Source: a virus
Length of the DNA: 40,080 bases
Virus record (IMG/VR): IMGVR_UViG_3300045976_000196
Coordinates: 1-40,080 of that record
Reading direction: 5' to 3' (one strand)
The notes beneath the pieces are model-generated. The model saw only the letters and a program-made list of their open reading frames with translations. It did no database searches and was not told where the DNA came from. Positions 3,853 through 28,665 of the stretch are shown piece after piece (the stretch's first letter is position 1; every line of letters starts with the position of its first letter). The position numbers and the translations under genes are program-made.

Positions 3853-4230
3853 TTACGCGACGCCGGGCATCTGCGTGGCCGTGACGGTGAACTCGCGCAG
3901 CGAGCCGCCGTTGTGCGAAAGGGCCGTGGTGTCGGTGTAGATGCCGCCTGCGGCGACGCCGTTGCCGGTGGTCGTATTCGCGAGAGTGAGGGCGACGCCA
4001 GGCGACGCAGCGCAAATGCCCGTGGCGGCCGTGGTGATCACGCGCACGTTGTAGGTCGCCTTCGGGTTGTGATAGACGATGCCGGTCGTGTAGCCGACGG
4101 CGCCGTCGTAAACCTCGATCTTCTGGCGATCCGTATTTCGCGAGAACGACTGGATGATGCCTCCGCTCTCCGCGGTGAGGAGGAACGTCGCGCCCGAAAG
4201 GTTGAGCAGGATGGGGTCTTGAGCGGCCAT
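3853..4230 (-). CDS. Probable major tail tube protein
   Basis: A 125-residue protein rich in Thr, Gly, Ala and beta-branched residues, with the alternating pattern of a beta-sandwich. Tube proteins of this size normally lie between the tail terminator and the chaperone pair, as here. Its ATG directly follows the TAA of the gene upstream (4231). The call rests on position and composition only. The neighbour at 3091-3798 is the alternative candidate. Confidence 0.55.
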   Translation of the reverse strand: MAAQDPILLNLSGATFLLTAESGGIIQSFSRNTDRQKIEVYDGAVGYTTGIVYHNPKATYNVRVITTAATGICAASPGVALTLANTTTGNGVAAGGIYTDTTALSHNGGSLREFTVTATQMPGVA

Positions 4231-10070: not shown

Positions 10071-10146
10071 TGGTGGCAGGGGCAGGAATCGAACCTGCGA
10101 CCTCCGGGGTATGAGCCCGACGAGCTAACCACTGCTCCACCCTGAC
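10071..10146 (-). tRNA. tRNA-Met(CAT), initiator-like
   Basis: The minus strand folds as a full 76-base cloverleaf with encoded CCA. It has acceptor GTCAGGG/CCCTGCC (one T-C mismatch at the second pair), D stem GAGC/GCTC, anticodon stem TCGGG/CCCGG with loop CTCATAC (anticodon CAT), and T stem GCAGG/CCTGC with loop TTCGATT. Three consecutive G-C pairs at the bottom of the anticodon stem and an A11-T24 pair are hallmarks of bacterial initiator tRNA. The first acceptor pair is G-C, unlike typical tRNA-fMet, but the next pair is a mismatch that could also weaken the end. Its 5' end overlaps the 3' end of the gene at 10125-10439. Confidence 0.9.
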
Positions 10147-13936: not shown

Positions 13937-14092
13937 TGTAACAGCGAAATTATGTTACATTACAGAGTATTTCGTCACCTTGACACGGTAGGGGTCACAG
14001 GTTCGAACCCTGTATCGCGCACCATATACGGCTCATTTAGGGCCATATCCATAGAAGTGGGCTTTTCGAATGTTACATTTTCGTGTTACATT
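13937..14092. repeat. TGTTACATT repeats flanking attP
   Basis: TGTTACATT occurs at 13953-13961, 14071-14079 and 14084-14092, with an inverted TGTAACA at 13937-13943. The copies bracket the tRNA-like attP core and end just before the integrase start. They could be integrase arm-type or excisionase sites, or operators for the integrase promoter. Three exact nine-base copies in 140 bases are unlikely by chance. Confidence 0.5.
13976..14024 (+). other. attP core: 3' half of a tRNA-Val(GAC)
   Basis: The sequence matches the 3' part of a tRNA: anticodon loop TTGACAC (anticodon GAC, 13980-13986), 3' anticodon strand GGTAG, variable loop GGGTC, perfect T arm ACAGG-TTCGAAC-CCTGT, acceptor strand ATCGCGC, discriminator A and CCA (14022-14024). 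The 5' half of the tRNA is absent. Phage attP cores commonly carry a tRNA 3' end so that integration restores the host gene. The integrase follows at 14100. Predicted attB: a host tRNA-Val(GAC) whose 5' acceptor strand reads GCGCGAT. Confidence 0.9.
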
Positions 14093-14099
14093 CTTGGGC

Positions 14100-15149
14100 A
14101 TGAAAGGCGCGCTGAGGGGGCTCTATAAACGCGGAAAAATTTGGTGGTATCGCTGGGGCGTGGATGGTCGCGGTTATCACCAGAGTCTGAAAACTCAGAA
14201 CGAAGACGAGGCCATTGCGAAGGCCCTTGCCATTCGCCGCACGCCGGAGTTGGTGAAGTCGGATGAATGGAAAAAAGATGTTCGCTCCTTCATCCGTCAC
14301 AAGGTCTCTCTACGGGAATTTCGTGAAGGCCAATCTTCCAAGATTCGCGAGGATAAACTCGTGAGCATCGGCCAGGAGATTGGCATCTCCACGGTCGCCC
14401 AGCTTGATACAGAGCGCATCCAGACATGGTATGACGCCATGCGAGTGGCTCCATCCACGCGCCAGACCTACCTCAATTATCTCTCCTCCTTCTGCGCGTG
14501 GCTCGTCGAGAAACGGATGCTCCGCGAGAATCCGTGCACGCGCGTTCAGAGGGGGAAAATTCATCGCGCCGGACGCAAGTCCTTCCTCGAGCCGGAGGAT
14601 GTCGATAAATTGATTGCCGCCGTTGATGATCGCGTGGTTGCGATATCCGGCGAGGCCAAGGGATTATCCAACGACGAGCTGAAATTCATTTTGCTCTGCG
14701 GCTTCGATGCCGGCTTGCGCACGGAGGAGATTATCGAGGCGCAGCCGCATTGGTTCGACCTGCGCCGCGGCCTGCTTCACGTGCAGGCGACCGAGAACTG
14801 GATTCCCAAGGACAACGAGGCGCGCACGATCCCGCTCACGCAGCGTTTCCAGGAATTCCTCTCCACATTCCTGAGGCGTGAGGACAAGTATGTGTTGAAG
14901 CCGTCGGCCACGAAGTCCGCCTGGCGGTATCGCTACGATTTTCGCCGGCCGTTCAAGAAATTCGTCGCCGCGGCCGGGTATCCCACCCTCACTCGCCACG
15001 ACATGCGCCGCACCTTCGCGAGCCTGCGTGTCTCCGCCGGCGTCTCCATCTACAAGGTCGCCCGCTGGCTGGGCGATGGTGTCGCCGTCGTCGAGCGCAG
15101 CTACGGCCACCTCATCCCTCTCGACTCGGATATCGAGCGCGATCGGTGA
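14100..15149 (+). CDS. int: Phage tyrosine integrase
   Basis: A 349-residue recombinase next to attP. The N-terminal arm-binding segment (LYKRGKIWWYRWGVDG) and the SAM-like core-binding domain (~70-160) precede the catalytic domain. Catalytic residues appear as R in DAGLRTEEI, H..R in TRHDMRRTF, LGD in place of LGH, and the nucleophile Y in VVERSYGHL. An in-frame ATG at 14070 exists, but 14100 gives the usual N-terminus. It catalyses integration at the tRNA-Val site. It belongs to a different branch from the second recombinase at 27649. Confidence 0.93.
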   Translation: MKGALRGLYKRGKIWWYRWGVDGRGYHQSLKTQNEDEAIAKALAIRRTPELVKSDEWKKDVRSFIRHKVSLREFREGQSSKIREDKLVSIGQEIGISTVAQLDTERIQTWYDAMRVAPSTRQTYLNYLSSFCAWLVEKRMLRENPCTRVQRGKIHRAGRKSFLEPEDVDKLIAAVDDRVVAISGEAKGLSNDELKFILLCGFDAGLRTEEIIEAQPHWFDLRRGLLHVQATENWIPKDNEARTIPLTQRFQEFLSTFLRREDKYVLKPSATKSAWRYRYDFRRPFKKFVAAAGYPTLTRHDMRRTFASLRVSAGVSIYKVARWLGDGVAVVERSYGHLIPLDSDIERDR

Positions 15150-22399: not shown

Positions 22400-23424
22400 C
22401 GACTGCCTCCATTCTCCCCGACGAAGAGCGCGCCGCCGCCGTGCTGCCACCGCCATCGGCCACCGAGCGCGTGCTCGTCCCGCAGCCACTCAGCGCTGCG
22501 CACATCGCACCGCCGCATCTCGAGCCCGGCCTGCACTTCGGCGTCTCCGCCGAGACGTATCGCGCTCTCCCGTATTTCAACCAGTCGATCCTCAAGAAGT
22601 GGATGGAGCTCGGAATGGATGTCCACGGCTCGCGCAACAAGCGCTGCCCGGCGAAGTTCAAGCTCTGGCTCGACACGCGCGACCAGCAGCCACAGAGCGA
22701 GGCCATGCTCCTCGGCAGCCTGCTCGATTGCGTGCTCCTCGAGCCAGACGCCTTCGACTCCCGCTACGTCGTCGTGCCGGAGGATGCTCCGAAGCGCCCG
22801 CCAAAAAAGATCGAGGATTACAAAAAGCCGAGCCTCGAGACCATCACCGCCTGCGCGTGGTGGGAGGATTTCGAGGCCGCCCGAGCCGGGCGCACGGTGG
22901 TCACCTCCGGGCAGCGAGAGCGCGCTCTGGCCATGGCCGCGAGCCTGCGAGAGCGCTCCGACTTCCGCACCATCCTCGAGTCCGGCACGAAGGCCGTGAT
23001 CGTCGCCGAGATCTGCGGCCAGCTCTGCAAGTGCGAGATCGACGTCTTCGTCCTCGCCGGCCGCTACCATTACGACATCAAGAAGTGCGTCGATGCGTCG
23101 AATTCCGCGAAGGGCTTCGTCAAGAGCATCCTCGACTATCGCCTCGACATCCAGGCCGCCTTCTACCTTGACATGGGCGCCGCGATTGGCCACCCACGCG
23201 AGGGCTTCTGCTTCCTCGCCTGCGAAGACGAGGCGCCGCATTTCACGAACGCGATCCGCCTCCCTGCCGACGACGTGCGCGTCGAGCACAGTCGCCGCCA
23301 ATACCTCGCCGCCCTGCAGACGCTCGCGCGGCACATCGCCGGCAACCACTGGCCTGGCTACACGAAATTCGAAATCCCGAACTGGCCCGAGTGGGCGCAA
23401 TTCGAGGCGGAGATGCCGGGCTAA
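22396..23424 (+). CDS. RecE-like exonuclease (PD-(D/E)XK)
   Basis: A 342-residue protein. The N-terminal region has YRALPYFNQSILKKW. The nuclease core then shows LLGSLLDCVLLEP, CEIDVFV and YDIKKC: the acidic residues and Lys of the PD-(D/E)XK site of RecE-type (exonuclease VIII) enzymes. The QAAFYLD helix follows. It resects double-stranded DNA for annealing recombination. The TAA stop lies in GGGCTAACGC, which also looks like the left core of the first attC-like site. Confidence 0.85.
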   Translation: MTTASILPDEERAAAVLPPPSATERVLVPQPLSAAHIAPPHLEPGLHFGVSAETYRALPYFNQSILKKWMELGMDVHGSRNKRCPAKFKLWLDTRDQQPQSEAMLLGSLLDCVLLEPDAFDSRYVVVPEDAPKRPPKKIEDYKKPSLETITACAWWEDFEAARAGRTVVTSGQRERALAMAASLRERSDFRTILESGTKAVIVAEICGQLCKCEIDVFVLAGRYHYDIKKCVDASNSAKGFVKSILDYRLDIQAAFYLDMGAAIGHPREGFCFLACEDEAPHFTNAIRLPADDVRVEHSRRQYLAALQTLARHIAGNHWPGYTKFEIPNWPEWAQFEAEMPG

Positions 23425-23536
23425 CGCGAAGCTCTCCAACCCCGACTTAGCAAAATGAACGACCAAACCACACTTAGCGAAGCGTCAACCCCCGCGTCCA
23501 CGCCAGATGCAGAGTCTTGTTCGGCGTTTGATGGCC
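23418..23536. repeat. attC-like site 1 (weak), RecE/first cassette
   Basis: Left core GGGCTAACGC holds the RecE stop. The right arm GCGTTTGATGGCC (23524-23536) can pair with it with bulges. Bases 23429-23510 repeat 25232-25313 with few mismatches. This could be the attI-equivalent or a degenerate attC. Confidence 0.45.
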
Positions 23537-23814
23537 ATACAGAGGGGCCTTGGGAGATGTCCTACGATCAAGGTAGTTATCGCGACATCATGACGAAAGA
23601 CGCGCGGATCTGCACGGTTCGCCACGGTTATGTCTCGCGAAAAACATACCACGCAAATTCTAGATTAATCGCGGCAGCGCCCACATTGCTAAAATCTCTC
23701 GAGCGACTTCACGCCGCTGTCGCCGATAGGATGATGTCGGCATCCGATGGGATGGTCCGAACGCTGGAGCTGAGCAACGCGGCGCGAATGACGACTGACC
23801 ATGAAATCGCCTGA
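23455..23814 (+). CDS. Cassette gene A: HTxGPW-type phage protein
   Basis: A 119-residue protein. Its first ~25 residues (MNDQTTLSEA...) are encoded inside the attC-like site and nearly repeat the N-terminus of gene F. The rest carries a well-known small-phage-protein pattern: HTEGPWEMSYD, a beta region, then NSRLIAAAPTLLKSL. The end of the frame runs into the left arm of the next site. Function of the family is unknown. Confidence 0.75.
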   Translation: MNDQTTLSEASTPASTPDAESCSAFDGHTEGPWEMSYDQGSYRDIMTKDARICTVRHGYVSRKTYHANSRLIAAAPTLLKSLERLHAAVADRMMSASDGMVRTLELSNAARMTTDHEIA

Positions 23815-23852
23815 GACAATCGAAAATCAGAACGGCTCGCCGCGTTGTGCTC
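23772..23852. repeat. attC-like site 2 (A/B)
   Basis: Left arm GAGCAACGCGGCG (23772-23784) pairs with right arm CGCCGCGTTGTGCTC (23838-23852), with a two-base bulge next to the AAC/GTT core. The start codon of gene B (23801) lies inside. The right core is followed by CAGCGACTGGTTCTG, related to the segment after other sites. Confidence 0.75.
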
Positions 23853-24205
23853 CAGCGACTGGTTCTGTGCGTCCGTCCGTAAAAGAAAGACTCGGCCATA
23901 GCGTGGATGAAAAAGGAAACATCCACTACGACGAACGCCCGATGACGTGGGAGGCCGCTGACAAACTCGCGGGCAAGAAACTCGACCGGCGCAAGAACTA
24001 CTGCGTGATAGATGGCCGCGTGTGTGAACTCGCTGAGTGGGTGGAATCATGCTCCGGCTGTCACGAGACAAATGAAGGCTACGAACTGCCCGGAACAAAA
24101 TTCGACGCGAACGGAATCGCGCTCGGCTCTGGCTGCCATGAGTGTGGCTACCAGGGGAAAGTGAAAACCGCCATGTGGATGCCAATAGATGGCGACGAAT
24201 GGTGA
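23801..24205 (+). CDS. Cassette gene B: zinc-ribbon-like protein
   Basis: A 134-residue protein. Residues 1-14 come from the attC-like site, and the PATGSV motif follows the crossover. The body has two cysteine pairs (CSGCHETNEGYELPG and GCHECGYQG) that probably bind zinc, as in many small phage proteins. It overlaps gene A by 14 bases. Confidence 0.72.
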   Translation: MKSPETIENQNGSPRCAPATGSVRPSVKERLGHSVDEKGNIHYDERPMTWEAADKLAGKKLDRRKNYCVIDGRVCELAEWVESCSGCHETNEGYELPGTKFDANGIALGSGCHECGYQGKVKTAMWMPIDGDEW

Positions 24206-24224
24206 AAGCACAGAACGACAAACC

Positions 24225-24293
24225 CAGCAACCGAGGGCGCGAAAATGAGTGATGCTATCAAAACCGACGCAGCCGCGACCGAAGGTTGCGCTG
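24225..24293. repeat. attC-like site 3 (B/C)
   Basis: CAGCAACC (24225-24232) pairs with GGTTGCGCTG (24284-24293) with a two-base bulge at the same place as in site 2. The start of gene C (24245) lies inside. Immediately downstream the sequence runs into TGCGGTGACTGGCTCTGCG, identical to site 6. Confidence 0.7.
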
Positions 24294-24571
24294 CGGTGAC
24301 TGGCTCTGCGCTAACTCCAATCGGCCCCAGCTCAGACGACTTCTACAGATTTATGAATGCGCGTCACGACCTCGACGAACGCATGCGTGATGGCACCTTC
24401 AATCGCCACACAGGCTATGAAATCTGGCGCAATGCTTGGATGGCCTGCGAGAGAGAACACGGCATCCGCCCGCATGCGCAGAGCGCCCGCGCCTCATCGG
24501 CGGGGGACAACGGCCCCACGTCCGATGCGGGCGCTGGCTCGCCGACGGCCGAGGCCGGGGGCGGCAGGTGA
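24245..24571 (+). CDS. Cassette gene C, unknown
   Basis: A 108-residue protein. The leader is encoded by the site, then AAVTGSAL, then a compact segment (FYRFMNARHDLDERMRDG and TGYEIWRNAWMACERE) resembling small proteins common in phages. The last ~30 residues (Ala/Ser/Gly-rich) read through the next site, so the ancestral protein probably ended earlier. Confidence 0.65.
   Translation: MSDAIKTDAAATEGCAAVTGSALTPIGPSSDDFYRFMNARHDLDERMRDGTFNRHTGYEIWRNAWMACEREHGIRPHAQSARASSAGDNGPTSDAGAGSPTAEAGGGR
24482..24535. repeat. attC-like site 4 (C/D), GTC-type
   Basis: Arms AGCGCCCGC/GCGGGCGCT enclose ATCGG/CCGAT, an asymmetric internal loop CG/ACGT, and a GGGG/CCCC stem. Sites 9 and 11 share the internal loop and order of stems. 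After it comes GGCGCTGGCTCGCCG, like the segment after GTT-type sites. Confidence 0.65.
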
Positions 24572-24576
24572 ATACT

Positions 24577-24996
24577 ATGAGACCGCTTGATCTAATATGG
24601 AAGTGCCGGGAGTGTGGCTGGACTGACATCGGTCCGGCTGAGCCAGATAAATGCGAGGACTGCGATGAGGAAGGCACGTTCGTCGCCGAAGAACCCGAGC
24701 AGCCGACAGCCGACGGCGGGACAGCGAACGCTCGGCGATCATCGCGAAGCGATGAAGTGCGAAGCACGTTCGCCGAAGAGGCGCGGGCGCTCACCGGCGG
24801 GGCCGCCAAGCTACGCGAATACTTCGAGCGCAGACTAGACGAAGCTCACGCCGCGTATGAGCACTACCAGCTTTGCCATGTCCCAGGCGAAAGCACGGAG
24901 AACATCTCCGAAACAATACGTGAGCTGGACGAGCTACTAGCCATCGTCGTGCGGTGGGAAACGGAGGCCCCGGCGGTGAGCGTGAAGCCCAGCTAA
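24577..24996 (+). CDS. Cassette gene D: two joined modules, zinc ribbon plus helical
   Basis: A 139-residue protein. Residues 1-43 are a rubredoxin-like zinc ribbon (CRECGW and CEDCDEEG). Residues ~44-72 are translated from a fold-back (site 5) and nearly repeat a stretch of gene I. Residues 73-139 are a helical protein (LREYFERRLDEAHAAYEHYQ). The simplest reading is two cassettes joined in frame through an attC-like element. The end, Lys-Pro-Ser-stop, lies in the left core of site 6. Confidence 0.7.
   Translation: MRPLDLIWKCRECGWTDIGPAEPDKCEDCDEEGTFVAEEPEQPTADGGTANARRSSRSDEVRSTFAEEARALTGGAAKLREYFERRLDEAHAAYEHYQLCHVPGESTENISETIRELDELLAIVVRWETEAPAVSVKPS
24724..24773. repeat. attC-like site 5, inside gene D
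   Basis: GCGAACG (24724-24730) pairs with CGTTCGC (24767-24773), around a perfect inner hairpin TCATCGC-GAA-GCGATGA (24739-24755). The surrounding 76 bases closely match 27335-27410 in gene I. It is translated as part of the protein (RSSRSDE core). Confidence 0.7.
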
Positions 24997-25057
24997 CCCC
25001 AGCCGGAAATGACCGCTATGAATACAAAAATAACGCCGCCCGGCTTGGGGTTAGCTG
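24990..25057. repeat. attC-like site 6 (D/E)
   Basis: CAGCTAACCCCAGCCGG (24990-25006) pairs with CCGGCTTGGGGTTAGCTG (25040-25057) over 17 pairs with one bulged T, as extrahelical bases occur in attC. The left core carries the gene D stop, the right core is GTTAGCT, and the start of gene E lies inside the loop. Confidence 0.8.
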
Positions 25058-25212
25058 CGGTGACTGGCTCTGCGGCGGGGATGTGCCACTGCGGAAAGAA
25101 ACCCAAACAACCAGACCATACCTGCCCGTATGCCGAGGAAATCAATGGCGACTCAACCTCGCTATGTAACTGCTGCGAGGACTGCGAACATGAATGCTGC
25201 ATGGACATCTAG
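25009..25212 (+). CDS. Cassette gene E: cysteine-rich small protein
   Basis: A 67-residue protein (ATG 25009, or 25018 giving 64). The leader comes from site 6, then AAVTGSAAG, then CHCGKKPKQPDHTC and LCNCCEDCEHECC: nine cysteines that suggest metal binding. Function is unknown. Confidence 0.6.
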   Translation: MTAMNTKITPPGLGLAAVTGSAAGMCHCGKKPKQPDHTCPYAEEINGDSTSLCNCCEDCEHECCMDI

Positions 25213-25234
25213 CGCCGAGCCGCAGAGCGCCAAG

Positions 25235-25330
25235 CTCTCCAACCCCGACTTAGCAAAATGAACGATCAAACCACACTTAGCGAAGCTGCAAGCCCCGCGT
25301 CCGAGCCAGATGGTGGCAAGGGGTTGGGAG
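25235..25330. repeat. attC-like site 7 (E/F)
   Basis: CTCTCCAACCCC (25235-25246) pairs with GGGGTTGGGAG (25320-25330) with one bulged T. The long loop holds the start codon and first 21 codons of gene F. The left part repeats site 1. The preceding GCAGAGCGCCAAGC also precedes site 8. Confidence 0.72.
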
Positions 25331-25629
25331 CGGCGACTGGCTCTGCGGTCGTGAAATGCCCTGTGTGCCGAAATGGAAGGCTGGCAGGACAAGAACTGTG
25401 GTTGGTCGGAGAGGATGGAGTAAAAATATCTTTCCTTGGCTATCAATCTGACCCGTGCCCCGTATGCAAGGGGACGGGTAAAATGATGCATCCCGCCGCT
25501 CCACTCAAGGCGCTGCTCGAACACTCTGGAGTGGCCGACGCCCACGAAGAGGACTTGGAGCCGGAGGATCGTGCCGCAGAAAGCACCGCGCGGCGTCTAC
25601 TCGATACGCAGAGCGCCAAGCCCAGCTAA
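25258..25629 (+). CDS. Cassette gene F: two-CxxC zinc-finger protein
   Basis: A 123-residue protein. The leader MNDQTTLSEA is shared with gene A and encoded in the site. GAATGSAVV follows the crossover. The body has CPVCRNGRL and CPVCKGTGKM, a DnaJ-like zinc-finger arrangement, and a helical acidic end. Lys-Pro-Ser-stop lies in the left core of site 8, exactly as in gene D. Confidence 0.72.
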   Translation: MNDQTTLSEAASPASEPDGGKGLGAATGSAVVKCPVCRNGRLAGQELWLVGEDGVKISFLGYQSDPCPVCKGTGKMMHPAAPLKALLEHSGVADAHEEDLEPEDRAAESTARRLLDTQSAKPS

Positions 25630-25692
25630 TTCCTAGCCGCCAATTTTGACGACCGAAACCAAAACCAACGTGCCACGGCTAGGAATTAGCTG
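25623..25692. repeat. attC-like site 8 (F/G), perfect 17-base arms
   Basis: CAGCTAATTCCTAGCCG (25623-25639) is the exact reverse complement of 25676-25692. Inner TTTTG/CAAAA can extend the fold. The core is AAT/ATT instead of AAC/GTT. A GTTAGCC core-like word follows nine bases later. The perfect arms suggest a recent or still-folding site. Confidence 0.72.
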
Positions 25693-25719
25693 AGGCGATT
25701 TGTTAGCCACTTAGTAAAA

Positions 25720-25932
25720 ATGAGATCGGATACGCTGCCAAGTAAAGAAAATGCTATGGAACAAGAGTTGCAGGATGCCTATCGCGCACTCGACGCGAAG
25801 GATGAGCGAATCAGAAAGCTGGAAAAGGAACTCTCTGATTGCTGGAAAGTCGAAGAAATCATTATGGCGGCAGGGCTGCTTCCAAAAGAGAAGTTCAATC
25901 AAGCTAGAGAGATTATCGCCTCTCTTGGCTAA
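25720..25932 (+). CDS. Cassette gene G: small coiled-coil protein
   Basis: A 70-residue protein (or 58 from the ATG at 25756). The LDAKDERIRKLEKELSDCW segment has clear heptads. A helical end follows. The stop lies in GGCTAACGGGG, again a left core. The CACTTAGTAAAA leader resembles the CACTTAGC and GACTTAGCAAAA words of sites 1 and 7. Confidence 0.62.
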   Translation: MRSDTLPSKENAMEQELQDAYRALDAKDERIRKLEKELSDCWKVEEIIMAAGLLPKEKFNQAREIIASLG

Positions 25933-25934
25933 CG

Positions 25935-26003
25935 GGGCCGGCCCATCGGCGGTCCCCCGTCAGGGGGACACGTCCGATGCGGTGGCTGGTTGCTCGCCGG
26001 CCC
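25935..26003. repeat. attC-like site 9 (G/H), GTC-type
   Basis: Outer arms GGGCCGGC/GCCGGCCC enclose CATCGG/CCGATG, internal loop CG/ACGT and GTCCCCC-GTCA-GGGGGAC. Compared with site 11 the second stem changes on both sides (CATCGG/CCGATG versus CTCCGG/CCGGAG). Downstream of CCGATG comes GCGGTGGCTGG. Confidence 0.72.
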
Positions 26004-26033
26004 GTGGAACGAAGAATCAACCTAATAGCTAAT

Positions 26034-26393
26034 ATGAAACTCACAATCGAAGATGGGAAGTCGAACGTAATCCTGGCCGTCGAGCTGCCAGCCACCGCAC
26101 GACGAATCGCCGTAGGCGATAGCGAAGCGGTCGTCGATGGGCCGGCCCCGTTGCTCGACGGGCTGGCCGAGCTAAAGCGGATCATCGACGGCAGGAATGA
26201 CGAAGCATGGTCGAGGCTGGAGAAAGCACGCAGAACTCCGCAGGAGGATGAACTTCGCTCCGAGTGGGCTCCGCACTACGAAGCCTCGATCATGCTGGAA
26301 AAGCTAATGCTTTACGTCGAATCGAAACCCGCGCGAAGCCCGGCGAGCAACGCTGAGCTATGCCGCGACGACCAACGGGAGGAGTTGGCATGA
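26034..26393 (+). CDS. Cassette gene H, unknown
   Basis: A 119-residue acidic protein with a beta-rich N-terminus (MKLTIEDGKSNVILAVELP) and a helical C-terminus. It has no leader from a site: its ATG follows site 9 by about 30 bases. Its last codons lie in the next fold-back. Function is unknown. Confidence 0.65.
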   Translation: MKLTIEDGKSNVILAVELPATARRIAVGDSEAVVDGPAPLLDGLAELKRIIDGRNDEAWSRLEKARRTPQEDELRSEWAPHYEASIMLEKLMLYVESKPARSPASNAELCRDDQREELA

Positions 26394-26406
26394 GCGCCTT
26401 GTTCGC
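26343..26406. repeat. attC-like site 10 (H/minus block)
   Basis: GCGAGCAACGC (26343-26353) pairs with GCCTTGTTCGC (26396-26406) at nine of eleven positions, around an inner CCAAC/GTTGG hairpin. The gene H stop is inside. Arms are less perfect than at other sites. Confidence 0.5.
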
Positions 26407-26409
26407 AGA

Positions 26410-26544
26410 TCATTCAGGCTTCGGCTTTCGTGGCCTTCCGCCCTTCTTGCCGTTGGCTCTTGCGGCAGCGGTCTTCGCGTCGCTTTTGACTTTACCGCCG
26501 ATCTTTCCTCCGAGCTTACCGAGAGCTTGCGCGGCCTTATTCAT
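26410..26544 (-). CDS. Small basic Lys/Gly-rich protein
   Basis: A 44-residue protein starting MNKAAQALGKLGGK and ending GKKGGRPRKPKPE. Such short basic proteins with the GGRPRK end are frequent in bacterial genomes and probably bind nucleic acid. Its start overlaps the end of the next minus gene, making a three-gene block opposite to the other cassettes. Confidence 0.6.
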   Translation of the reverse strand: MNKAAQALGKLGGKIGGKVKSDAKTAAARANGKKGGRPRKPKPE

Positions 26545-26764
26545 TTGGGGCGAGGTTTTCGGAGATCGTAAATCCATCGTCTCTTTTCCCGGTCTCAAAA
26601 GCCTCGATCAAATCGGCGTCATCAAGATCGTGGCGATGCCAAACATTGCAATCTTCGGAGGCGTTGATTTTTGCCAAATATTCATCGGCCTCTTGAGGCG
26701 TCCCAAATCCATACTGGGGCGCCGTGTTGTAACGCGAAAAATGATGCCAGCGAGCGTCGTCCAT
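26537..26764 (-). CDS. Small acidic protein in reversed cassette block
   Basis: A 75-residue acidic protein rich in Asp, Trp and His, with a PQEADEYLAKINASEDCNVW segment. It lies three bases after its upstream neighbour and overlaps the basic 44-residue gene. The acidic/basic pairing could suggest a toxin-antitoxin-like couple, but no family is recognised. Confidence 0.6.
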   Translation of the reverse strand: MDDARWHHFSRYNTAPQYGFGTPQEADEYLAKINASEDCNVWHRHDLDDADLIEAFETGKRDDGFTISENLAPNE

Positions 26765-26767
26765 TGG

Positions 26768-26992
26768 TTAGGAGAGTTGAGCGAGGGCAAGCTCGCAGGC
26801 TTCCAAGGCAGGGTGGCCAATGGTCAGGGCGCGGGCGTGACCGGAGCGCTTGTTGGACAGGCGGCCGTTGTCGAAAAGGACGTAGCCGCGCCCGAAGTAG
26901 ATTCGATCTGCGCCCGCGCGCGGGCGGTCACCAAAGTAATTGTAGCCCTGCTCGTTGAGCTTCCGGACGATGTCTTGCGTTGTGATTTCCAT
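26768..26992 (-). CDS. First gene of reversed cassette block, unknown
   Basis: A 74-residue protein with an N-terminal helix (TTQDIVRKLNEQGYNYFG) and a beta-rich middle (DRIYFGRGYVLFDNGRL). A hairpin CCCAAA-CCGC-TTTGGG (27004-27019) lies just upstream of its ATG and may be an operator. Its own promoter would be needed because it opposes the early operon. Confidence 0.6.
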   Translation of the reverse strand: MEITTQDIVRKLNEQGYNYFGDRPRAGADRIYFGRGYVLFDNGRLSNKRSGHARALTIGHPALEACELALAQLS

Positions 26993-27003
26993 GGACGCAA
27001 TAT

Positions 27004-27019
27004 CCCAAACCGCTTTGGG
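27004..27019. promoter_or_regulatory. Palindrome upstream of the reversed block
   Basis: CCCAAA and TTTGGG are perfect inverted arms with a four-base spacer, 11 bases upstream of the minus-strand ATG. Operator or hairpin function cannot be separated from sequence alone. The rest of 26993-27107 holds A-rich non-coding DNA. Confidence 0.4.
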
Positions 27020-27107
27020 TTTTGCAAGGGAAATTTCACGCGAAACGAAAAAAGCTGTGAGTTACAGAGTAAATCGCCGCAAAAAAATTCTGCGAACGGG
27101 GCGTGCT

Positions 27108-27146
27108 CTCCGGCGGTCCCTGCCCCTGGCAGGGACACGTCCGGAG
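27108..27146. repeat. attC-like site 11 (before gene I), GTC-type
   Basis: CTCCGG/CCGGAG, internal loop CG/ACGT and GTCCCTGCC-CCT-GGCAGGGAC: the same architecture as site 9 with compensatory changes in both stems. GCGGCGGCTGG follows. A GAAC-containing left flank lies just upstream. Confidence 0.72.
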
Positions 27147-27213
27147 CGGCGGCTGGGTCACCGCTGGCCGAGCCTGTAGGCCGCCCTCGACAACAAAATG
27201 AAAGGAAATAGCC

Positions 27214-27615
27214 ATGCCTGAGCCAGACAAAGTCGAAGAGATGACTCCTGAACAACGCCGAATGCTTGATCGCATCTTCGGGCCCGTAACTACTCCACGC
27301 CGTCTGGCGGTCGCCAATGCACATCGGCGCGAGGCGACAGCCATCGGTGGCACAGACGACGCCCGACGATCATCGCGAAGCGATGAAGGGCGAAGCCCGT
27401 TCGTCGGAGAGCACGCCCCGGTCACCGATGGGCCGGGTAGCCACATCGCCACGTTGGCGAAAATGCTGGAAGAAGAGCGGCGGGAGATACCGTTCTTCGG
27501 AATGCACCTTTCTGACTCACGCAGAGAGGAAATCGAAAGGAGGATAGCCGCTCTGGCCGAAGCCATAGCAGCGCTCCGAAACGGGAACGCTGGAGGCCCA
27601 GCGGTGACCAGGTGA
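27214..27615 (+). CDS. Cassette gene I: two joined modules
   Basis: A 133-residue protein. Residues 1-45 form a helical segment (EMTPEQRRMLDRIFGPVTT). Residues ~46-72 are translated from fold-back site 12 and match gene D. Residues ~75-133 are a second helical protein (IATLAKMLEEERREI and ERRIAALAEAIAAL). As in gene D this looks like in-frame joining of two cassettes. A Shine-Dalgarno-like GAAAGGAAAT precedes the ATG. Confidence 0.68.
   Translation: MPEPDKVEEMTPEQRRMLDRIFGPVTTPRRLAVANAHRREATAIGGTDDARRSSRSDEGRSPFVGEHAPVTDGPGSHIATLAKMLEEERREIPFFGMHLSDSRREEIERRIAALAEAIAALRNGNAGGPAVTR
27355..27405. repeat. attC-like site 12, inside gene I
   Basis: GACGACG (27355-27361) can pair with CGTTCGTC (27398-27405), around TCATCGC-GAA-GCGATGA (27370-27386). 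Relative to site 5 the outer arm changes on both sides (GCG/CGC to GACG/CGTC). Confidence 0.65.
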
Positions 27616-27648
27616 TTCGCCAGAACCACTTCTAAAATAACTCAGAAA

Positions 27649-28665
27649 ATGACGAAATCCGAGGCGATGGCTGCGCTGGAGCGCGGGATGGGGCGGGAGC
27701 GGTTGCTTTACCGCTCGCAGCAGACTTATCGCGGCTGCGTCTCGCGATTTCTCGATTGGGCAAAGGGGCGGTGGTCCGGTTCCACGCCCGAGCAGGTGGT
27801 CTCCGACTACCTCGGCGAACATGCGCCGAATTGGGCGGCGGCCACGCAGAGCCAGGCGCTCAATGCCATCGTCTTCTTTTTCCGCGCGGGGCTGGAGAAG
27901 CCGCTCGGCGAGTTGCCATCGTGGGCGCGTGCGCAACGGCCAAGCCGCCTGCCCGTGTGGCTTACGCACGAGGAGGCGCTCGCCGTGCTCGAGCAAATGA
28001 CCGGTCTTCCCCGGCTCGCGTGCGAGCTGATGTATGGCGGCGGCTTTCGCATCACCGAGGTCTGCCGGCTGCGGCGGCGCGATGTGAACTGGCGAGACCT
28101 CACCATCACTGTGCGCGATGGCAAGGGCGGGAAGGACCGAGTCACCTGCCTGCCCGTGGCGCTTGTCGAGAAGCTGCGTGAGCAGGATGCCCGCGCGGAG
28201 GCCACATGGCGACAGGATCGTGAGCGAAACGTCGGCCCCGTGTGGGTGCCCGATTGCGTGCTCCGCAAGCAGCCACGCGCCGGTCTCGAGGAGGGAAATT
28301 TCTGGTTGCTTCCTGCGGCCGGTCTCGCGCGCGGCGAGCAGTGGGGCAATGTGCGCCACCACGTGCACCCCGATACGCTCGCGAAGGCCATCCCCATCGC
28401 CGTGCGGCGCGCGCGAGTGCTCAAGCGCGTAACCGCGCATGTCTTTCGCCACACGTTCGCCACCGAGTATCTGCGCAACGGCGGCGATCTCAACTCCCTT
28501 CGAGAGCTTCTCGGGCACACGCACCTCGACACCACGCAGATCTATCTACACTGCCTGCCGCGGCTGGCCGCGCGCATCACGAGCCCGCTTGATCAAAAGC
28601 CCGGCAACGTGATCGCGATGCCTTCCGCACCGGCCCCTTTCGCGGCGCTGCACGCTGTTGGTTGA
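27649..28665 (+). CDS. Integron integrase-like tyrosine recombinase
   Basis: A 338-residue recombinase. The N-terminal domain has YRSQQTYRGCVSRFLDW and QRPSRLPVWLTHEEAL. Catalytic residues are R134 (GGGFRITE), K162 (GKGGKDR), H264/R267 (HVFRH), H290 (LLGH) and Y299 (TQIYLH). Between the Lys and the HxxR box lies an extra segment, residues ~198-240 (VPDCVLRKQPRAG, then NVRHHVHPDTL). It aligns by eye with the IntI-specific insert (LPDALERKYPRAG ... VRRHH) that recognises folded attC. The conserved end SPLD is also present. It should recombine the adjacent fold-back sites. No LexA box is seen upstream. Confidence 0.88.
   Translation: MTKSEAMAALERGMGRERLLYRSQQTYRGCVSRFLDWAKGRWSGSTPEQVVSDYLGEHAPNWAAATQSQALNAIVFFFRAGLEKPLGELPSWARAQRPSRLPVWLTHEEALAVLEQMTGLPRLACELMYGGGFRITEVCRLRRRDVNWRDLTITVRDGKGGKDRVTCLPVALVEKLREQDARAEATWRQDRERNVGPVWVPDCVLRKQPRAGLEEGNFWLLPAAGLARGEQWGNVRHHVHPDTLAKAIPIAVRRARVLKRVTAHVFRHTFATEYLRNGGDLNSLRELLGHTHLDTTQIYLHCLPRLAARITSPLDQKPGNVIAMPSAPAPFAALHAVG

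Follow-up and report, generated by a model that had tools for sequence, protein, structure and literature searches.

attC sites as probable frame-locked stop/start adaptors in a phage integron with inverted cassette genes

Integron cassettes are usually viewed as promoterless genes with the recombination site as a passive tail. In the usual, though not universal, layout the cassette gene lies upstream of its attC and is read away from intI. The sole conserved sequence of attC sites is an AAC on the recombining bottom strand, which is cut between A and C (PMC4792948). Phages are known to carry integrons, and also attC clusters without an integrase, as in Shewanella phage M16-3 and V. anguillarum phages (Qi et al. 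2023, PMC9892861), and several phage attC sites recombine with attI1 via IntI1 (PMC9892861). Coding across a recombination site is known from ORF-11, whose frame crosses the attI1 crossover, needs an in-phase stop from the cassette core and aids the next gene by translational coupling (PMC8876359). In Treponema integrons intI lies in the direction of the cassettes and reads toward attI (PMC3607928). In fused cassettes, which arise by attC loss and are rare, proteins take their start signals from the neighbouring cassette (PMC4670013, PMC8876359).

We analysed a phage contig, an IMG/VR virus record of 40,080 bases (hereafter, the window), which like the phages of PMC9892861 has attI and attC sites on a phage genome, here together with an IntI-like gene. 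The product of the gene at 27649-28665 is an integron-integrase-like tyrosine recombinase: its best match is TIGR02249, over 308 residues at 249.9 bits, just below the curated cut-off of 265 and far higher than its scores on the Xer models. It also matches PF00589 (90 bits) and shares 36% identity with the protein annotated as integron integrase in Shewanella phage M16-3. Directly 5' of intI lies an attI-like stretch with an AAC-type triplet that is the edge of conservation in about 25 phage loci, the sequence to the right of the triplet being conserved and that to its left variable. The same contig also has a second tyrosine integrase gene (14070-15149, plus strand) and a tRNA-Met gene (10071-10146, minus strand).

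Upstream of intI, between 23423 and 27423, about ten palindromic attC-like sites separate small plus-strand genes (A to I), which point the same way as intI and the surrounding phage genes. These features are given below; a slash marks the cut position in a box, "-stop" marks a stop codon, and phase 2 denotes the frame in which the crossover triplet AAC is a codon (Asn).

23423-23521, plus strand: site S1; left box AA/C at 23423, right box G/TT at 23519; holds the gene A ATG (23455)
23455-23814, plus strand: gene A; 21-residue leader from S1; 17 C-terminal residues from S2, entered in phase 1, the sole phase exception in the window
23760-23864, plus strand: site S2; left box 23760, right box 23862; holds the gene B ATG (23801)
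23801-24205, plus strand: gene B; leader MKSPETIENQNGSPRCAPAT from S2; stop lies before S3
24214-24305, plus strand: site S3; left box 24214, right box 24303 (G/CTC); holds the gene C ATG (24245)
24245-24571, plus strand: gene C; 28 C-terminal residues coded by the next site (S4/S5), phase 2
24482-24791, plus strand: S4/S5, large two-step site; left box 24482, right box 24789; outer stem 24481-24502 with 24771-24792; holds the gene D ATG (24577)
24577-24996, plus strand: gene D; rubredoxin-like zinc-ribbon stretch at the start; tail SVKPS-stop from S6, phase 2
24979-25069, plus strand: site S6; left box 24979, right box 25067; right arm with extra unpaired bases; holds the gene E ATG (25009)
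25009-25212, plus strand: gene E, Cys-rich; leader MTAMNTKITPPGLGLAAVT; stop lies before S7
25226-25342, plus strand: site S7; left box 25226, right box 25340; holds the gene F ATG (25258)
25258-25629, plus strand: gene F, with CXXC motifs; 27-residue leader; tail SAKPS-stop from S8, phase 2
25612-25704, plus strand: site S8; left box 25612, right box 25702; without an in-frame ATG
25720, plus strand: own ATG of gene G, after S8; the only one of genes A to I to start outside its site
25931-26152, plus strand: S9/S10, large two-step site; left box 25931, right box 26150; holds the gene H ATG (26034)
26034-26393, plus strand: gene H; tail NAELCRDDQREELA-stop from S11, phase 2
26349-26403, plus strand: site S11; left box 26349, right box 26401
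26349-27095: S11 cassette; likely genes of 62-75 aa on the minus strand (26410-26992), in the usual integron orientation
27095-27423, plus strand: S12/S13, large two-step site; left box 27095, right box 27421; holds the gene I ATG (27214)
27214-27615, plus strand: gene I, the last cassette gene; enters attI in phase 2 and stops there as TR-stop
27606-27648, plus strand: attI-like site between the last cassette and intI; GTGAC/CAGGTGATTCGCCAGAACC...ATG
27649-28665, plus strand: intI, integron-integrase-like tyrosine recombinase of 338 aa, on the strand shared with the cassette genes

The sites are palindromic with AAC/GTT boxes; those of the window partly have AGC/GCT in this place and depart from the strict GTTRRRY pattern. 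The inner GTT (GTTGGGA, GTTAGCT, GTTGCGC, GTTGTGC) belongs to an inner, L-type arm, and a second conserved box pair is found outside it, with GAAC/GAGC on the left and GTTC/GCTC on the right. Bases past a right box pair with bases before the next left box, matching the expectation for the two ends of a single circularised cassette: GCTCTGCGC at 24303 pairs with GCGCAGAGC at 24476, GTTAGCCA at 25702 with TGGCTAAC at 25926, and TTCGCAGA at the S11 right box with TCTGCGAA at the following left box. The crossover therefore lies at one of the outer boxes, and the pairing does not tell which one. As bottom-strand DNA, S2 (23755-23869), S6 (24973-25074), S7 (25220-25347) and S8 (25605-25708) fold better than shuffles, with z = -3.0, -3.2, -2.4 and -6.1, respectively; the other three of the seven simple window sites fold no better than shuffles (S3, 24208-24310; S11, 26342-26408; S1, 23419-23526). 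These results bear out the arms, and an earlier sequence-only reading of this DNA was right in taking the sites for recombination sites of an integron-like array.

In the large sites S4/S5, S9/S10 and S12/S13, a second stem and the ATG lie within outer arms of 21-27 bp. We considered small inserted cassettes at these positions, but the pairing of both outer and inner arms better fits a single large site in each case.

To compare this array with others, we gathered IMG/VR contigs with related integrases (loci given below as L numbers) by integrase-alignment searches. The closest relative of the window IntI, L007 (82% identical), is on a contig that ends 35 nt upstream of intI, and its array is therefore missing. 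L019/L094 have an IntI 42% identical to that of the window and about ten cassettes, and L022/L125 have one that is 40% identical. Prediction with a simple arm score gave 65 sites upstream of intI as against 6 in downstream stretches of similar lengths at 24 loci, so that some of the predicted sites are false; together with the curated sites they make 70 distinct sites. The array was without a nucleotide relative among GenBank phages, an Rfam search gave no match, and a scan of genome contigs with two close IntI sequences returned one distant recombinase only. An exact DNA search of IMG/VR with the arm GCGGYGACTGGCTCTGCG gave three chance matches only, all in coding genes. We could not find a near relative with an array, and gain or loss was not seen for the window's own cassettes.

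The products encoded by the related cassettes include C5 and N6/N4 DNA methyltransferases (L099, L107, L113, L114, L118, L119), which would suit protection against host restriction, as well as an RNA ligase (L121, L104) and a PAPS-reductase-like protein (L104). At five more distant integrase loci (L175, L069, L202, L193, L042) the attC sites are of another sequence type and a stop/start overlap lies near an in-site ATG; the stop/start design may thus be wider than the group studied here. L031 has perfect inverted repeats of 20 and 24 nt (4058-4161 and 2492-2559) upstream of a phage IntI-like gene, which are unlike the attC sites of the studied arrays.

Eight plus-strand genes of the window have their start within a site and leave it by the right arm, the gene after S8 being different in this respect. 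The ATG lies between the arms at 23455, 23801, 24245, 25009 and 25258, and within the two-step sites at 24577, 26034 and 27214. Over about 20 arrays, 59 sites have a clear downstream gene frame; 45/59 contain an open ATG in that frame as compared with 20/118 for the other two frames (p = 1.4e-14), and the minus-strand mirror control gave no excess (8/41 vs 25/82). The proposal of the sequence-only reading that a site carries the ATG of the next gene, with the frame running through the right arm, is thus well supported. The leaders encoded in this way are mostly 13-27 residues long (MKNELTAESGGGVSSTDLLCAF is an example). Matches to known domains set in shortly afterwards: the phrog_1273 match of gene A starts no earlier than residue 27 (profile position 7), the C5 methyltransferase of L107 has its Pfam match from residue 26 (profile position 4), and the RNA ligase of L121 has its domain match from residue 35 (profile position 3). 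Homologues therefore lack the leader, a further point on which the same reading holds. Its TGSA/TGSV motif is the translation of a conserved DNA arm, GCGGYGACTGGYTCTGYG, and one site of L022/L125 has the same TGSV reading, but the motif is missing from most sites of the related arrays. Shine-Dalgarno-like motifs are rare upstream of the in-site ATGs (4/50).

It could be argued that the leaders and tails are not translated, or are cleaved, that the proteins start past the right box, and that the open frames merely reflect stop-poor, GC-rich arms. The domain matches that begin only after the leader would fit such a situation, as would the in-frame ATG, GTG or TTG that 37/50 genes have at most 15 codons past the right box, so that a later start is possible for individual genes. 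When only ATG is counted, such a codon is present in 13/50, leaving 37/50 without one, and the other two frames of these arms have an open ATG in only the 20/118 noted above. We therefore regard this explanation as unlikely, and favour translation from the in-site starts.

The phase in which an upstream gene enters the following site was nearly constant. In a frame-length test that ignores starts, entry was in phase 2 at 48/51 junctions, with the reservation that, the genomes being GC-rich, some of the counted long frames do not represent genes, for example those into window S1, S9 and S12. Elsewhere in long frames AACG is in phase 2 in 51% of cases, and the excess over this background is significant (p = 2e-11); at loci that were not used for discovery, phase 2 was found in 26/32 (p = 4e-4 vs background). 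Among genes that have an in-site start and cross the left box, phase 2 was seen in 20/20 outside the window and in 5/6 inside it, namely C, D, F and H into attC sites and I into attI. The window genes that do not follow the pattern are A, in phase 1, B and E, which stop before the next site, and G, which stops in the box.

The phase-2 frame also has a fixed fate. Among sites with an in-site start the phase-2 tail stops within the site in 51/51, and this stop is located between -30 and +15 nt from the next ATG in 47/51, as compared with 22/51 and 12/51 for the other phases (p = 7e-13). In 17/51 the stop and start overlap exactly as ATGA; in S7, for example, the phase-2 tail SAKLSNPDLAK-stop overlaps the start of gene F in this manner. 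In the large sites S4/S5, S9/S10 and S12/S13 the tails run to 29, 33 and 38 codons, and their stops precede the ATG by 8, 4 and 5 nt, respectively. An example of the end of a C-terminal tail is ...LEANVPALAASLAENSNQATDTQDEN. In addition, attI stops the phase-2 frame before intI in 24/24 correctly placed cases, with related tails such as NSDYPEQLSR-stop and, in L114, NTDYPHQKCK-stop (triplet placed by eye). Two attI variants have an extra or changed base in the crossover triplet, GAACC/AGTGATT in L125 and GTGAC/CAGGTGATT at 27606 in the window; in both of them the phase-2 stop still precedes intI.

These regularities would be hard to obtain from an ordinary integron in which the gene orientation is incidental, the overlaps come from phage packing, and the phase comes from base composition or codon bias around AACG. 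Overlaps of the ATGA type are common among phage genes, and the 51% background shows that AACG in long frames already tends to phase 2. However, the junctions exceed this background, the minus strand of the palindromic sites at the loci not used for discovery has an even distribution of phases (13/12/7), and no phase other than 2 stops within every site, which it does even at 24482, 25931 and 27095, where the tail takes 29-38 codons. Packing alone predicts no single phase across unrelated genes and arrays, and we consider this explanation improbable.

Where related phage contigs have gained, lost or shared cassettes, the breakpoint is always the same. L118 and L139 match without a difference for 3.6 kb, after which L139 has one cassette, about 300 nt long, that L118 lacks; it is bounded by GGCGAACG/TCCC and GCCGAACG/GCAT, both GAACG boxes. 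L102 and L101 are without stretches found in L104, the joints being CAGAAC and GAACGA, and L104 and L121 have 1011 nt in common at 100% identity, from AACGACCC to CATAACGA. In four of four cassette polymorphisms the breakpoint is the left box, before the ATG. Where the ends of shared segments fall at boxes, over all pairs, 16/18 are at the left box and 2/18 at the right, both of the latter being matches confined to the hairpin; 5 more ends lie inside a site. Within the window, S1 and S7 share an 85-nt repeat that starts exactly at the crossover C (23425 and 25228). In canonical attC sites it is the arm away from the crossover that carries the extra unpaired bases, which set the choice of strand; here 48 sites have more unpaired bases on the right arm and 5 on the left arm. 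The attI-like stretch, with its edge of conservation at the AAC-type triplet, points to the left box as well. As judged from these comparisons of sequences, the crossover is at the left box, AA/C on the coding strand, upstream of the ATG.

Two of the polymorphisms show what such a crossover does to a protein. One protein ends in ...KIEDLEANGMDERARSSTSSTTHSTL-stop in L118 and in ...KIEDLEANVPALAASLAENSNQATDTQDEN-stop in L139, and the RNA ligase common to L104 and L121 ends in ...ALQAHND-stop in one and ...ALQAHNESALP-stop in the other. In either pair the two copies agree fully as far as the crossover and differ in the tail, each beside a different site.

Placing the crossover at the right-hand GTT, so that each site donates a start, expression signals and an N-terminal tag to the next inserted cassette, would make use of a loop ATG and an open frame through the right arm that are real and enriched, but it is highly improbable, as it conflicts with the left-box polymorphisms, the 16 vs 2 homology ends, the unpaired bases on the right arm, a right-box codon phase of 11/14/25 over the three phases, and homologous methyltransferases of different arrays that differ in phase. 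The constant phase of TGS in the window had made the right box a candidate; the other arrays show all three phases, and the mapping of the polymorphisms to the left box contradicts it. Since the phase at the right box is not fixed, the sites do not give a start to whichever cassette follows.

The crossover at the left box also corrects the sequence-only reading, which had put it at the inner GTT, with a constant frame there that should be conserved in related arrays, and had the leader supplied by a neighbour across the crossover. The inner GTT is in two phases within the window alone (genes B and C vs E and F), the right-box counts show no frame conservation in related arrays, and the breaks upstream of the ATG mean that the leader is not a neighbour's. 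What stands of its idea of translation across the crossover in a fixed frame is found at the 3' ends of genes, not as an N-terminal fusion.

With the crossover upstream of the ATG, the start, leader and gene move as one unit, and the gene travels with the site that precedes it. An AAC crossover at the left box makes the recombining strand the coding strand, and the cassette genes are therefore inverted relative to attC. Accordingly, except in the S11 cassette with its minus-strand genes, each cassette gene lies behind its own site and reads toward intI, in the same direction as intI itself.

We propose, with considerable confidence, that the attC sites described here serve as stop/start adaptors locked in frame, through which an array stays translationally coupled when it is shuffled, in a phage-borne integron whose cassette genes are opposite to the ordinary orientation relative to attC and so run with intI in a phage operon. 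The proposal builds on what is visible in the DNA itself: the anatomy of the sites, the position of the crossover, the fixed phase, the proximity of stop and start, and the natural tail swaps. Each cassette starts with the left box (coding-strand crossover AA/C), followed by the left arm, the loop, the right arm and finally the gene. The left arm, read in the one phase in which AAC is an Asn codon, would provide a short C-terminal tail and a stop for the upstream gene; the loop holds the start codon of the cassette's own gene, and the right arm its first 15-30 codons. The tail stop and the start are at most a few tens of bases apart, often overlapping as ATGA, and a ribosome ending one gene could melt the hairpin, terminate in the loop and reinitiate on the gene that follows. 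Presumably the sites are acted on by IntI and both leaders and tails are translated; coupling by reinitiation would be the selected benefit.

As the crossover has the same phase in nearly all genes and sites, any order of cassettes would keep frames, stops and coupling. It is likely that the AAC codon frame is shared by nearly all cassettes of a widespread phage group, and that recombination swaps tails in frame and re-forms a coupled junction each time, giving a shuffleable operon that needs no cassette promoter. If true, the site is a two-sided coding adaptor, and each recombination rewrites protein ends with the frames intact. This would account for how a phage can shuffle small genes, such as those of DNA methyltransferases, RNA ligase and zinc-ribbon proteins, in an operon and yet express each of them. 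The AAC phase is also a simple sequence test, with which such arrays can be found and the adaptation of integrons to phage genomes studied, and the adaptors might be useful for constructing reorderable operons.

We were not able to find a report of arrays that combine inverted genes, in-site starts and a fixed attC phase in the literature searched, which took in few subscription papers and no preprints. PMC9892861, which we searched for orientation and start codons, has no mention of attC start codons or frame locking, and the M16-3 genes beside intI are on the strand opposite to intI, in the usual layout, unlike those of the window. In Treponema it is intI that reads toward attI; here attI has its usual place 5' of intI, and it is the genes of the cassettes whose direction is reversed. 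Fused cassettes differ in that a site has been lost, whereas the sites here are retained and each serves two genes. ORF-11 of class 1 integrons encodes an 11-residue peptide and concerns attI1 only. By contrast, the arrays described here have inverted cassette genes, most of their attC sites are crossed by whole genes in a single phase, and the same site also contains the start of the next gene.
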